Part shown: in pieces, positions 106-4,030 of the stretch
Position numbering within the stretch: the stretch's first letter is position 1
Layout: each line of letters opens with the position of its first letter
NCBI GenBank assembly: GCA_017883065.1
Contig: JADGOG010000010.1
Coordinates: 1 to 37,495 of the forward strand
Reading direction: 5' to 3'
DNA length: 37,495 bases
DNA from: Acidimicrobiales bacterium
Lineage (GTDB): Bacteria > Actinomycetota > Acidimicrobiia > Acidimicrobiales > RAAP-2
Program-made: the position numbers and the translations under genes
The notes under the pieces: generated by a model
Database searches by the model: none
Seen by the model: the letters and a program-made list of their open reading frames with translations, nothing else
Told to the model about the DNA's origin: nothing

Positions 106-666
106 ATGGTCGAAGGCAAGATGCACTTCCGTCGGATGGACGAGGGGACCTCCGAGGACTTCGCGCTGCTGGCCGCCGTGCACGAGGCGAACATCCGCGC
201 CCTGCCCGACCTCCTGCTGGGCATGCTCACCCAGCTCACCGCCGACGGCACCTATCCGGTCGACCGCCTCGAGCACAGCCTGCAGTGTGCCACCCGGGCC
301 CTCCGCGACGGGCGTGACGAGGAGTACATCGTGTGCTGTCTCCTCCACGACGTGGGCGAGTCGCTCGGTCCGTTCAACCACGGTGAAGTGGCGGCATCGG
401 TCCTCCGGCCGTTCGTTTCGACGGCGAACTACTGGATGTTGGCCCACCACCCGGTGTTCCAGGTGTACTACATCGGTCAGCACCTCGGTTTGGACCCCAA
501 CGAGCGCGACCAGTTCGTGACCAGTCCCTACTACGACCGGACCGTGGAGTTCTGTGCCCTCTACGACGAGGTCTCCTTCGACCCCGACTATCGGAGTGAG
601 CCCGTCGCCACGTTCGAACCGATGGTCCGCCGGGTCCTCGACCTCCAGTGGACCCCGCCGACCTAG
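106..666 (+). CDS. HD-domain protein, COG4341 / PhnZ-like family
   Basis: A 186-residue HD-superfamily protein. Visible metal-ligand candidates are H57, the H81-D82 doublet (LLHDVGE), H92, H114/H115 and D154. The stretches around FNHGEVAA, HHPVFQ and YDEVSFDPDY match my recollection of the 'predicted HD phosphohydrolase' family. That family includes mixed-valent diiron oxygenases such as PhnZ, which cleave C-P bonds, and is related to myo-inositol oxygenase. The doublet is followed by VGE rather than the HDxGH of PhnZ, so the residue after the HD motif that helps bind metal is Glu here. The substrate is unknown, and no phosphonate genes are nearby. The start is the ATG 6 nt after a -10-like box, with no ribosome-binding site. 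The gene converges on mftD, 31 bp away. Family assignment is fairly sure; the reaction is not. Confidence 0.8.
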   Translation: MVEGKMHFRRMDEGTSEDFALLAAVHEANIRALPDLLLGMLTQLTADGTYPVDRLEHSLQCATRALRDGRDEEYIVCCLLHDVGESLGPFNHGEVAASVLRPFVSTANYWMLAHHPVFQVYYIGQHLGLDPNERDQFVTSPYYDRTVEFCALYDEVSFDPDYRSEPVATFEPMVRRVLDLQWTPPT

Positions 667-697: not shown

Positions 698-1882
698 TCA
701 GCTTCCTCCGGTGTCGCCGAGGGTGCGGGTGAAGTCGGCCGGGACGAACAGGTCGTCACGGCTCAGTTGGTCGATGGAGGAGTGGCCCAGACCGAGCACG
801 GTCGACTCGATCCCACCCCGGAGGATGTCGAGCACGTTCTCCACCCCGGCCTGGCCGTTGGCCCCCAGTCCCCACAGGTAGGCACGACCGATCATCACGG
901 CTCGGGCGCCGAGGGCGAGCGCCTTGACCACGTCGCTCCCGCGCCGTACGCCACCGTCGAGGAGCACCTCGACCTGGTCGCCCACCGCGTCGACGATCAC
1001 CGGCAGGGCCCGGATAGTCGCAGGTGTGCCGTCGAGGTTGTTGCCACCATGGTTGGACACCGAGATGGCGGTCACCCCGGCATCGACGGCCCGTTTGGCG
1101 TCGTCGACCCTGACCACGCCCTTCAGCATGAACGGGCCTCCCCACTGCTCACGCAGCCAGGCCACGTCCTCCCAACTGGGATTGGGAGTCTGCATCCACT
1201 TCCCGTAGGCGCCGAAGAAGGTGGGCAGGGCCTCGCCCGGAATCGCCACGTTGGGCACGGTCAGGTCGGGGATGGCGCCGGACCGGGCGAAGTCGTACAG
1301 CCAGCGGGGACGGAGGGCGACCTCGGGCCCGAACTTGAGAGCCGCCTTGGCGTCGATCTTGTCCGGGATGGCCGGGCTCCCCCAGTCCCGGCCGTGGGAG
1401 AACGACCAGTCGAAGGTGGCGATCAGACCGACGGCTCCGGCCGCACGGACCCGTTCGATCCGCTGGCTCATCTCGTCCTTGTCCCCGATCCAGTAGGTCT
1501 GGAAGAAGGTCCGGGGGTTGGCTGCCACCACCTCTTCGATCGGCTTGCTGGCGAAGCAGCTGAGTCCCATCACGGTTCCCCGAGCCGCCGCCGCCCGAGC
1601 CACGGCCACCTCTCCGTCGGGATGGACGGCCTGGACCCCGGTGGGGGAGATGAGCACCGGGAGCGAGACGGGCTGTCCCATCACCGTGGTGGACAACTCG
1701 CGTTGGTCGCACAGTCCGGCCACATGGGGGGCGAGGCCGAGCTCATCGAAGGCCACTACGTTGTCGCTGACAGTCAGGCCTCTCTCCGTTCCAGCGACCA
1801 GGGCCGCGTAGACCGACTTGGGAAGCCGCTTCTTCGCCCTTCGCTGCGCTTCGGCGATCGTCTCGAACCATGGGTTGCTCAT
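698..1882 (-). CDS. mftD: Pre-mycofactocin synthase MftD (FMN-dependent, lactate oxidase family)
   Basis: A 394-residue TIM-barrel flavoprotein of the alpha-hydroxy-acid oxidase family. Its N-terminus (WFETIAEAQRRAKKRLPKSV), the ISPTGVQAVHPDGEVAVARA segment and the end of the barrel closely match actinobacterial MftD proteins such as Rv0694 as I remember them. MftD oxidatively deaminates the peptide-derived AHDP to give the redox-active pre-mycofactocin. The flavin-base His is in SNHGGNNLDG. Classical hydroxy-acid oxidases have Arg after the HGG to hold the substrate carboxylate; here it is Asn, which fits an MftD substrate rather than lactate. The start is ATG at 1882 with a GGAG about 8 nt upstream. 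It lies 66 bp downstream of a mycofactocin-type SDR on the same strand. The other maturation genes (mftA, B, C, E, F) are not in this window. Confidence 0.88.
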   Translation of the reverse strand: MSNPWFETIAEAQRRAKKRLPKSVYAALVAGTERGLTVSDNVVAFDELGLAPHVAGLCDQRELSTTVMGQPVSLPVLISPTGVQAVHPDGEVAVARAAAARGTVMGLSCFASKPIEEVVAANPRTFFQTYWIGDKDEMSQRIERVRAAGAVGLIATFDWSFSHGRDWGSPAIPDKIDAKAALKFGPEVALRPRWLYDFARSGAIPDLTVPNVAIPGEALPTFFGAYGKWMQTPNPSWEDVAWLREQWGGPFMLKGVVRVDDAKRAVDAGVTAISVSNHGGNNLDGTPATIRALPVIVDAVGDQVEVLLDGGVRRGSDVVKALALGARAVMIGRAYLWGLGANGQAGVENVLDILRGGIESTVLGLGHSSIDQLSRDDLFVPADFTRTLGDTGGS

Positions 1883-1948
1883 CGTTGGACTCCGTTCTCC
1901 GTCAAGGATGCGCCTGTCGTGCCGGCCGCCGTGTCATCGGGCGGAATG

Positions 1949-2758
1949 TCATCGGGTGGTGTTACCGGCGTCGATGGTGAACTCGAGACCGGTCACGTAG
2001 CGCGACTCTTCCGAGGCCAGGAAGAGGACGGCCTCACTCACGTCACGGGGCTGGATCAAGTTGACCGGGAGGCTGTTCTGGAAGATTCCCCCGACGTCGG
2101 GGTCGAGGCTGATCAACGGTTCGAGGCCGCCGAGGCCGACCAGCATCGGAGTGTCCACGCCGGTCGGGTGCACCGTGTTGACCCTGATCTGGTGGCGGGC
2201 CAACTCGTTGGACAGGGACCGGGCGATGCCCACGACGCCGTGCTTGGAGGCGACATAGGGGGTGAGGAACGGGATTCCCTTGAGGCCGGCGGTCGAGCTG
2301 GTGGCGATGATCGATCCACCACCGTTGGCGATGAGATGGGGCGCTCCGGCCACCATGGTGTTCCAGACCCCGGTGAGATTGGTGTCCAATGTGTCCTGCC
2401 AGAGCTGGCGGTCCACCTTGTCCCACGTCTGCACCGTGCAGATGCCGGCGTTGGCCACGACCACGTCGAGGTGGCCGAACTCGGCGAGGCCGGCGTCGAG
2501 GGCGGCGGACAGCGAGTCGGGATCCCGCACGTCGGCCCGTCGGGCCACGATGCGACGACCGGTCTCTTCCACCAGCTTGACCGTCGCGTCCAGGTCGCTC
2601 GGGGTGGACAGCGGGTAGCCCACCGAGTCGTAGTCCTCAAGCAGGTCGACGGCGATGATGTCGGCACCCTCCTCGGCCAGTCGGAGCGCATGGCTCCTGC
2701 CCATGCCCCTCGCCGCGCCGGTGATGAACGCGACCTTTCCTTCGACTCTTCCACTCAT
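1949..2758 (-). CDS. Mycofactocin-coupled SDR family oxidoreductase
   Basis: A 269-residue short-chain dehydrogenase/reductase. It has the TGAARGMG nucleotide-binding loop near the N-terminus, NAG (VVANAGI), the TSST serine region, the YVASK catalytic Tyr-Lys pair, and a C-terminal YVTGLEFTIDAG. The insertion after the second beta strand (DLLEDYDSVGYPLSTPSDLD) is typical of the mycofactocin-coupled SDR subfamily. Members hold NAD(H) tightly and use mycofactocin as external electron acceptor; carveol dehydrogenase-like enzymes are examples. The substrate cannot be told. The frame is open 28 codons further upstream, but ATG 2758 has AGGA at the right distance and starts the family's MSGRVEGKVAFITG. 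It is probably the first gene of an operon with mftD. Confidence 0.87.
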   Translation of the reverse strand: MSGRVEGKVAFITGAARGMGRSHALRLAEEGADIIAVDLLEDYDSVGYPLSTPSDLDATVKLVEETGRRIVARRADVRDPDSLSAALDAGLAEFGHLDVVVANAGICTVQTWDKVDRQLWQDTLDTNLTGVWNTMVAGAPHLIANGGGSIIATSSTAGLKGIPFLTPYVASKHGVVGIARSLSNELARHQIRVNTVHPTGVDTPMLVGLGGLEPLISLDPDVGGIFQNSLPVNLIQPRDVSEAVLFLASEESRYVTGLEFTIDAGNTTR

Positions 2759-3061
2759 GGTCGTTCCTGTCTGTCCGTCTGTCGGTCGTCGGCACCCGTC
2801 ACAACCCGGCGCCGGACTGCGGTAGGGACACAATAATGACACCCCGTGCCATTTTCAACATCGCAACTCCGCGGTCCCCCAGCAGGTCAACCGGTCCCGA
2901 TGGGGAAGGGGCGATCACGACCATTCCCCGACTCCGGGCGGTGCGGTCCGGACAGGCGGTGGGCGCCCACTGCTGATCCGACGGCGCCGGGATGCACGGG
3001 GCGGCCACCCGGCCCGACCACAATGGAGCCGCACGGGCCGGTCGACATCAGGGAGGGCGCC
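2759..3061. other. Divergent intergenic region, 303 bp
   Basis: Gap between the leftward SDR and the rightward choloylglycine-hydrolase-like gene. It holds a direct repeat with a -10-like box for the SDR (about 2827-2842) and the downstream gene's SD (3051-3057). The hydrolase frame is open back to 2846, but that stretch lacks a signal peptide and would hide the Cys2 nucleophile, so I treat it as non-coding. No RNA gene was seen. Confidence 0.6.
2827..2842 (-). promoter_or_regulatory. Direct repeat GTGTC-N6-GTGTC with -10-like box upstream of SDR-mftD
   Basis: On the minus strand the sequence GTGTCATTATTGTGTC contains two GTGTC copies, 11 bp apart start to start, separated by ATTATT. The -10-like TATTGT (2835-2830) overlaps the second copy. 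Transcription would start near 2823, leaving about 65 nt of leader. The AT-rich core stands out in this GC-rich sequence. An operator role is inference. Confidence 0.4.
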
Positions 3062-4030
3062 ATGTGTACCAGAATCTCGTTCACCTCCAAAGACGGACGG
3101 GTGGTCACCGGTAGGAACATGGACTGGCCCGAGGACATGCACACCGATCTGTGGGCCTTCGCCGCCGGGATGCACCGCACCGGGGACAACGGGCCGGCCG
3201 GCTTCATCTGGGAGTCGACCCACTCGTCGGTGATCGCCGCCGGCTACAACTGCGGGACGGCCGACGGCATCAACGATGCCGGCCTGGTCGCCAACCTTCT
3301 CTACCTGTCCGAGTCCGAGGTCGGCGAGCCCGGCGACCGCCCTCGTCTCAGCATCGGTGCCTGGGCGCAGTACGTCCTCGACTGCTGCTCGAGCGTCGCC
3401 GAGGTGGTGTCGACCATGGAGTCGGCCCCCTTCGCCATCACCACGTCCGCCCTCCCCAACGGCAGCCTCGCCAGCCTGCACCTGGCAGTGTCCGACGCCT
3501 CCGGCGACTCGGCGGTCTTCGAGTTCCTGCACGGGGACCTGACCGTGCACCACAGCCCCGAGTTCCGGGTGATGACCAACTCCCCGGTCTACGACCAGCA
3601 GTTGGCCATCGACGCCTATTGGAGGGAGATCGGAGGCGAGATCATGCTCCCGGGGACCAGCAGGGCGGCTGACCGCTACGTGCGGGCCAGCTACCACCTG
3701 GGCAACCTGCCGGTCGACGTCGACGACCGGGCGGCGGCGGCCGGCGTCCTCAGCGTGCAGCGCAACGTAGCCACGCCCCTCGGTACGGCTGCGCCGGGTG
3801 CGCCCGAAGTGTCCCAGACGTTGTGGACGTCGATCGCCGATTCCACCGCCCGCCGCTACTACTACCAGGACACGCTGTCGCCGGACATCGTCTGGGTGGA
3901 GTTGGATCGGTTGGCCTTCGACACCAGCGCACCGTCTCGTCGGCTGAACCTCCAGGGCCACCCCATCATCCACGGTGAGGTGTCCGACCGATTCGAGGCG
4001 GCAGACCCCTTCACCTTCCTCGGCACGTAG
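3062..4030 (+). CDS. Choloylglycine hydrolase-like (linear amide C-N hydrolase, Ntn family)
   Basis: A 322-residue N-terminal-nucleophile hydrolase of the bile-salt-hydrolase/penicillin V acylase family. If ATG 3062 is the start, Cys2 becomes the N-terminal nucleophile after Met removal. R18 and D21 (GRNMDW) fall on the canonical family positions, N173 (MTNSP) matches the conserved Asn, and an Arg in DRYVRAS (about 206-209) matches the last conserved residue. This numbering strongly supports the start, as does GGGAGGG at 3051-3057. There is no signal peptide, so it is cytoplasmic. Family members cleave linear amides: bile salts, penicillin V, N-acyl-homoserine lactones or N-acyl amino acids. 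The substrate here is unknown. It stands alone, followed after about 48 bp by the EAL-GAF gene. Confidence 0.88.
   Translation: MCTRISFTSKDGRVVTGRNMDWPEDMHTDLWAFAAGMHRTGDNGPAGFIWESTHSSVIAAGYNCGTADGINDAGLVANLLYLSESEVGEPGDRPRLSIGAWAQYVLDCCSSVAEVVSTMESAPFAITTSALPNGSLASLHLAVSDASGDSAVFEFLHGDLTVHHSPEFRVMTNSPVYDQQLAIDAYWREIGGEIMLPGTSRAADRYVRASYHLGNLPVDVDDRAAAAGVLSVQRNVATPLGTAAPGAPEVSQTLWTSIADSTARRYYYQDTLSPDIVWVELDRLAFDTSAPSRRLNLQGHPIIHGEVSDRFEAADPFTFLGT

Follow-up and report, generated by a model that had tools for sequence, protein, structure and literature searches.

The mycofactocin pathway of the Acidimicrobiales genome analyzed is complete and resides in two places, mftD being detached from the other biosynthetic genes and paired with an SDR gene. 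That one complete pathway is present here with a detached MftD, and that elsewhere the MftD step can be exchanged for a second module, is the reading we consider probable. The window analyzed is the entire contig C172 (37,495 bases) of a draft genome (G000; 3.09 Mb, 235 contigs).

Both genes of the pair lie on the minus strand. mftD (698-1882) starts at an ATG and encodes a predicted pre-mycofactocin synthase, a 394-residue FMN-dependent protein of Pfam family PF01070. The protein scores 712.3 bits against TIGR03966 (cut-off 470.85) over residues 3-386 (384 residues covered), and is the only MftD above cut-off genome-wide. The SDR gene precedes mftD in the same orientation, is separated from it by 66 bp, and is likely the first gene of a two-gene unit. 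Its longest reading frame spans 1949-2842 on the minus strand, with a GTG start at 2842, and the residues before 33 lie outside the profile match; the true start is likely the ATG at 2758, which yields a mycofactocin-coupled SDR oxidoreductase of 269 residues (1949-2758) scoring 372.3 bits against TIGR03971 (cut-off 300). An SDR-mftD pair had been placed at 698-2842 in a preliminary description of this DNA, and both genes are found there, each above the cut-off of its family.

An ordinary L-lactate or hydroxy-acid dehydrogenase standing beside an unrelated SDR would equally belong to PF01070, and the best solved relatives of the window protein are hydroxy-acid oxidising enzymes. This identity is nevertheless hardly credible. 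The best lactate dehydrogenase model (PRK11197, L-lactate dehydrogenase, 239 bits) trails TIGR03966 by 473 bits, LldD and lactate oxidase models score 221 and 150 bits, and the protein is below the curated cut-offs of both LldD (221 of 550 bits) and TIGR02708 (149.6 of 645.5 bits); assignment as a lactate dehydrogenase was rejected on the comparison of 712 with 239 bits. Asn281, in the motif SNHGGNNLD, occupies what we take to be the substrate-Arg site of the family. The replacement, already read in the preliminary description as favouring MftD over lactate oxidase, is real, SNHGGN being carried at this site by 47 of the 48 MftD sequences examined (the pattern was not found in the remaining one). 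All other mft genes are present in the genome, without a second MftD. Judged by these sequence features, 698-1882 encodes a genuine MftD.

An HD-domain gene (106-666, plus strand; PF01966, 23.8 bits) converges on mftD, with 31 bp between the ends of the two genes. Its product matches TIGR03276 weakly (35 bits), and is weakly similar to phosphonate-degrading HD oxygenases; a gene 47% identical to it (L062, 507-1172) is found in another genome, at a distance of about 7 kb from mftC. On the other side of the pair, a choloylglycine-hydrolase-like protein (2846-4030; PF02275, 142 bits) is encoded divergently from the SDR.

No mftA, mftB, mftC, mftE or mftF gene was found in the window, as the preliminary description had stated; it left two explanations, a split cluster or a cluster immediately to the left of the HD gene. 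The latter was rejected for the 7.5 kb that could be added on that side: positions 1-99 of the window are the first 99 bases, in reverse, of contig C92 (7552 bases), where no mft gene was found. Hence no mft gene besides mftD occurs within about 45 kb around it, in a draft assembly in which the mftD-mftC distance is not measurable. The split, on the other hand, is borne out by a genome-wide search. Contig C195 carries an NDMA-dependent alcohol dehydrogenase, MftR, MftA, MftB, MftC, MftE, an SDR, and the start of MftF, which continues on C8, the first 99 bases of this contig being identical to the end of C195. Profile scores are 49.8 bits for MftA, 113 for MftB, 661 for MftC (TIGR03962), 278 for MftE and 306 for MftF (on C8), and the MftA precursor ends in IDGMCGVY, thus in the expected VY. 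There is no room for mftD between mftC and mftE, as these are 24 bp apart, and overlaps with C195 or C8 occur at none of the ends of C92 and C172. Since the remaining mft genes are on C195/C8, and none in C172 or C92, the cluster is most likely truly split, and yet complete. Neither of the two outcomes that the preliminary description named as refuting, a genome without mftC and a profile score in favour of ordinary hydroxy-acid oxidases, was obtained. A second, divergent enzyme for the MftD step may exist in this genome.

The split might be an artefact, the window contig deriving from another organism and having been binned with this genome. The draft is fragmented in 235 contigs, the window MftD is placed apart from its family's clade in the MftD tree, where its exact position is uncertain, and neither MftD nor MftC groups with those of other sampled members of the family. 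Tetranucleotide use can be read both ways: C195 correlates more strongly with C172 (r 0.927) than with each of the 80 background loci taken from other genomes (at most 0.917), but some of these loci match C172 better (maximum 0.947) than C195 does. Against misbinning stand the low estimated contamination (0.59%) and the fact that, stripped of the window, this genome would lack both MftD and the alternative module described below, alone among the 98. We consider such an artefact very unlikely.

The system shares with Mycobacterium mftABCDEF the enzyme family, above its curated cut-off (MftD Rv0694, TIGR03966), the precursor ending and the other biosynthetic genes; it differs in that mftD stands apart from the cluster, in a pair with an SDR gene, and mftC and mftE are direct neighbours. 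Co-clustering of mftD with mftC has been described as typical rather than defining (Haft 2011, PMC3023750), and is not found here, C172 and C92 containing no other mft gene.

Detached mftD genes are common in the order. Relatives were monitored in an order sample of 148 Acidimicrobiales genomes (MftC in 54, MftD above cut-off in 31) and in a phylum sample of 346 genomes, drawn for at least 90% completeness (MftC in 60, MftD in 51). The mftC-mftD distance was compared in 73 genomes carrying both genes, 45 from the order and 28 from outside. The two genes lie within 5 kb of each other in 21/45 order genomes vs. 24/28 outside, and are more than 5 kb apart, or on different contigs, in 24/45 MftD-type order genomes vs. 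4/28 outside (Fisher p 0.001). In seven of the 45 the genes share a contig, at distances of 8 kb to 3.6 Mb; they reside on different contigs in 17/45 and 4/28 genomes, respectively, some of these cases being undecidable owing to contig ends. Separation is genuine in two single-contig genomes (G006 and G134). Detached mftD genes have no conserved neighbourhood: Mft, SDR and NDMA-dependent alcohol dehydrogenase families aside, no family was found within 7 kb in more than 3 of 20 loci. Related SDRs are encoded near mftD in many loci, and are mostly different paralogues; the closest, 54% identical, lies 13 bp from mftD in G069. In two genomes of a single genus outside the order (L246, L247) mftD is paired with mftE, away from mftC. 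mftD was also seen in Thermomicrobium, outside Actinomycetota.

In genomes with mftC and no MftD, the neighbours of mftC include genes for two long flavoproteins (TIGR03996 and TIGR03997), ETF alpha and beta subunits, and a FixC-like protein. NCBIfam names the flavoproteins mycofactocin FadH/OYE oxidoreductases 1 and 2, and the ETF subunits mycofactocin-associated. MftD and the TIGR03996/TIGR03997 pair are distributed as alternatives. Among the 98 MftC genomes in the union of the two samples, 72 have MftD only (three as fragments), 25 the pair only, one both, and none lacks both, so that the one-or-the-other rule for MftD holds in 97/98. The corresponding figures are 33 (three fragments), 20, one and zero for the 54 MftC genomes of the order sample, and 50, 10, zero and zero for the 60 of the phylum sample, where the pair state was called on TIGR03997. 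The exception, G069 (loci L092, L099 and L118), has two mftC clusters; MftD is encoded next to one of the two, and the OYE/ETF module occupies a third contig. In addition, 50 of 80 genomes with a named TIGR03997 protein were found and searched for MftD; 49 of the 50, a few of which are the same assemblies as in the two samples, have none. The remaining one, G503, a low-coverage MAG with MftD on a 6.6 kb contig, is with G069 the second genome carrying both.

These counts depend on a few calls. The pair was taken as present in three order genomes in which TIGR03997 is under the cut-off (G031, 787 bits; G082, 764 bits; G063, 677 bits), the G031 and G063 matches lying at contig ends; the top match treated as another paralogue scores 617 bits (G146). 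TIGR03996 is under its cut-off in G072 (at a contig end), G117, G082 and G103. The MftD fragments of G131, G143 and G077 were counted as MftD; if counted as absent, three genomes would have neither. Outside the 98 are G315 and G437, which have TIGR03997 and a divergent MftC missed at the threshold, and G345, with mftD and a partial MftC match. Three loci (L231, L232, L134) represent a family with a strongly divergent MftC (about 40% identity) and a precursor ending in VDGICGVY, encoded next to TIGR03997. Locus L233 encodes MftD, MftA, MftE and MftF, and a partial MftC match of 188 residues, a broken gene and an assembly fault being both possible. In G103, a genome 74% complete, the pair is present and no MftC was found.

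The mutual exclusion of MftD and the pair is not just ancestry, as the two states changed repeatedly on the MftC tree. A first tree, which included 86 of the 98 MftC genomes (87 proteins; the 12 left out are all MftD-type), requires 16 changes of the MftD/pair label, at least 8 of them forced. A more careful tree, omitting seven rows (the long G453, G142, G082, G117, G060 and G031, and the short G017), requires 11 changes, 9 of them forced by well-supported branches. The states have therefore switched at least 9 times on this tree. In ten independent pairs of rows, both traits change together in eight, change in opposite ways in none, and do not differ in two (p 0.008).

The position of the module is in line with a replacement of mftD. 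In the three annotated Streptomyces plasmid operons read, of six records found, the gene order is mftA-B-C, OYE1, OYE2, etfA, a FAD-dependent oxidoreductase, a 4Fe-4S protein and etfB, followed by mftF and mftE in two operons and by mftE alone in one. In all three the module begins directly behind mftC, the place of mftD in another Streptomyces plasmid (mftR, G, A, B, C, D, E, F). Of 25 pair-type loci, 22 yielded the MftA core, which ends in IDGMCGVY in 21 of them and in VDGICGVY in G453; the endings being kept, the residues on which MftC works are unchanged. Among 80 named loci, MftE is found near the module in 36 and MftF in 32.

TIGR03996 and TIGR03997 proteins consist of an FMN domain, 4Fe-4S cysteines and a Rossmann domain, a layout shared, as are the ETF partners, with trimethylamine and histamine dehydrogenases; trimethylamine dehydrogenase is an Fe-S flavoprotein which hands electrons to ETF (PMC8097209). 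By sequence, in contrast, TIGR03997 is closest, among solved relatives, to 2,4-dienoyl-CoA reductase (255 bits) and naphthoyl-CoA reductase (254 bits); histamine dehydrogenase follows with 202 bits and trimethylamine dehydrogenase with 177 bits. As CoA-ester reductases rank first, the sequence gives no pointer to amine oxidation.

Gene roles are established for the named mft families in mycobacteria. MftC cyclises the Val-Tyr core of the precursor, MftE frees it, MftD deaminates it and MftF adds sugars (PMC11778925), and by analogy the products presumably act here in the same way. MftA, MftB, MftC and MftE from C195/C8, together with MftR, the SDR, MftF and the NDMA-dependent alcohol dehydrogenase, would make, release and glycosylate the cyclised core. 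The detached window MftD would form pre-mycofactocin by oxidative deamination of AHDP, the released core, and the adjacent SDR is likely to be a nicotinoprotein that uses the cofactor. MftD acts on a small intermediate already freed, not on the MftA-MftB-MftC peptide complex; this would account for its tolerance of both detachment and replacement. In other lineages MftD would be replaced by the module of two Fe-S flavoproteins, an ETF pair and a FixC-like oxidoreductase. Replacement of the MftD step by the pair, acting together with ETF and the FixC-like protein, is the likeliest reading of the distribution: the module may carry out the MftD reaction, passing electrons to ETF and the quinone pool, and deamination by an enzyme of the TIGR03996/TIGR03997 type is plausible by analogy.

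The module might instead replace MftG, which re-oxidises the reduced cofactor into respiration, or replace both proteins. MftG is reported to link mycofactocin to respiration in mycobacteria (PMC11778925), and ETF with a FixC-like protein, accompanied by a 4Fe-4S protein, suggests delivery to quinone. In Streptomyces NBC_00080 and in Tsukamurella the mftD operon has mftG as a neighbour, a gene absent from the three Streptomyces module operons read; the two dehydrogenases are paralogous, and each could have assumed one role. However, tblastn placed MftG near mftC in no locus of the order, whether MftD-type or pair-type, so that the trade there is with MftD, and the rule holds for MftD in 97/98 genomes. 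The six loci with MftG near mftC, among those searched, are all MftD-type and from outside the order (the tblastn queries were four confirmed MftG proteins, a residue pattern having proved too narrow). If the module replaced MftG alone, genomes devoid of MftD would need another deaminating enzyme, or use a non-deaminated cofactor. A role in place of MftG, or of both, is possible, though we would not expect it. We lean towards two unrelated, interchangeable finishing modules, one being MftD, often with MftG, the other TIGR03996 and TIGR03997, with ETF and a quinone oxidoreductase of the FixC type receiving the electrons. This latter module would perform the deamination of MftD, one paralogue perhaps also re-oxidising the cofactor; nine or more switches would have occurred between the two, and a detached mftD, as in the window, may represent a stage of such a switch.

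No statement of a general MftD-or-pair rule was found in the open-access literature searched. The BGCFlow survey reports 17 Saccharopolyspora clusters lacking mftD and containing TIGR03997, and cites the detection of methylated mycofactocin in S. erythraea; as a survey of clusters, it leaves room for a detached mftD there (PMC11162802). Order-mates of the genome analyzed similarly have mft genes without mftD and with TIGR03997. The available part of that paper concerns a single genus and formulates no general rule, whereas the present data cover 98 genomes, repeated switching, and TIGR03996, ETF and FixC-like partners.

Surveys restricted to clusters will call complete pathways incomplete, this genome being an example. 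The replacement proposed assigns a function to two flavoprotein families and an ETF pair named by NCBIfam only for their association with mycofactocin, and would explain mycofactocin production in organisms lacking mftD. Should the module drain to quinone, its electrons would end up elsewhere than those of MftD.
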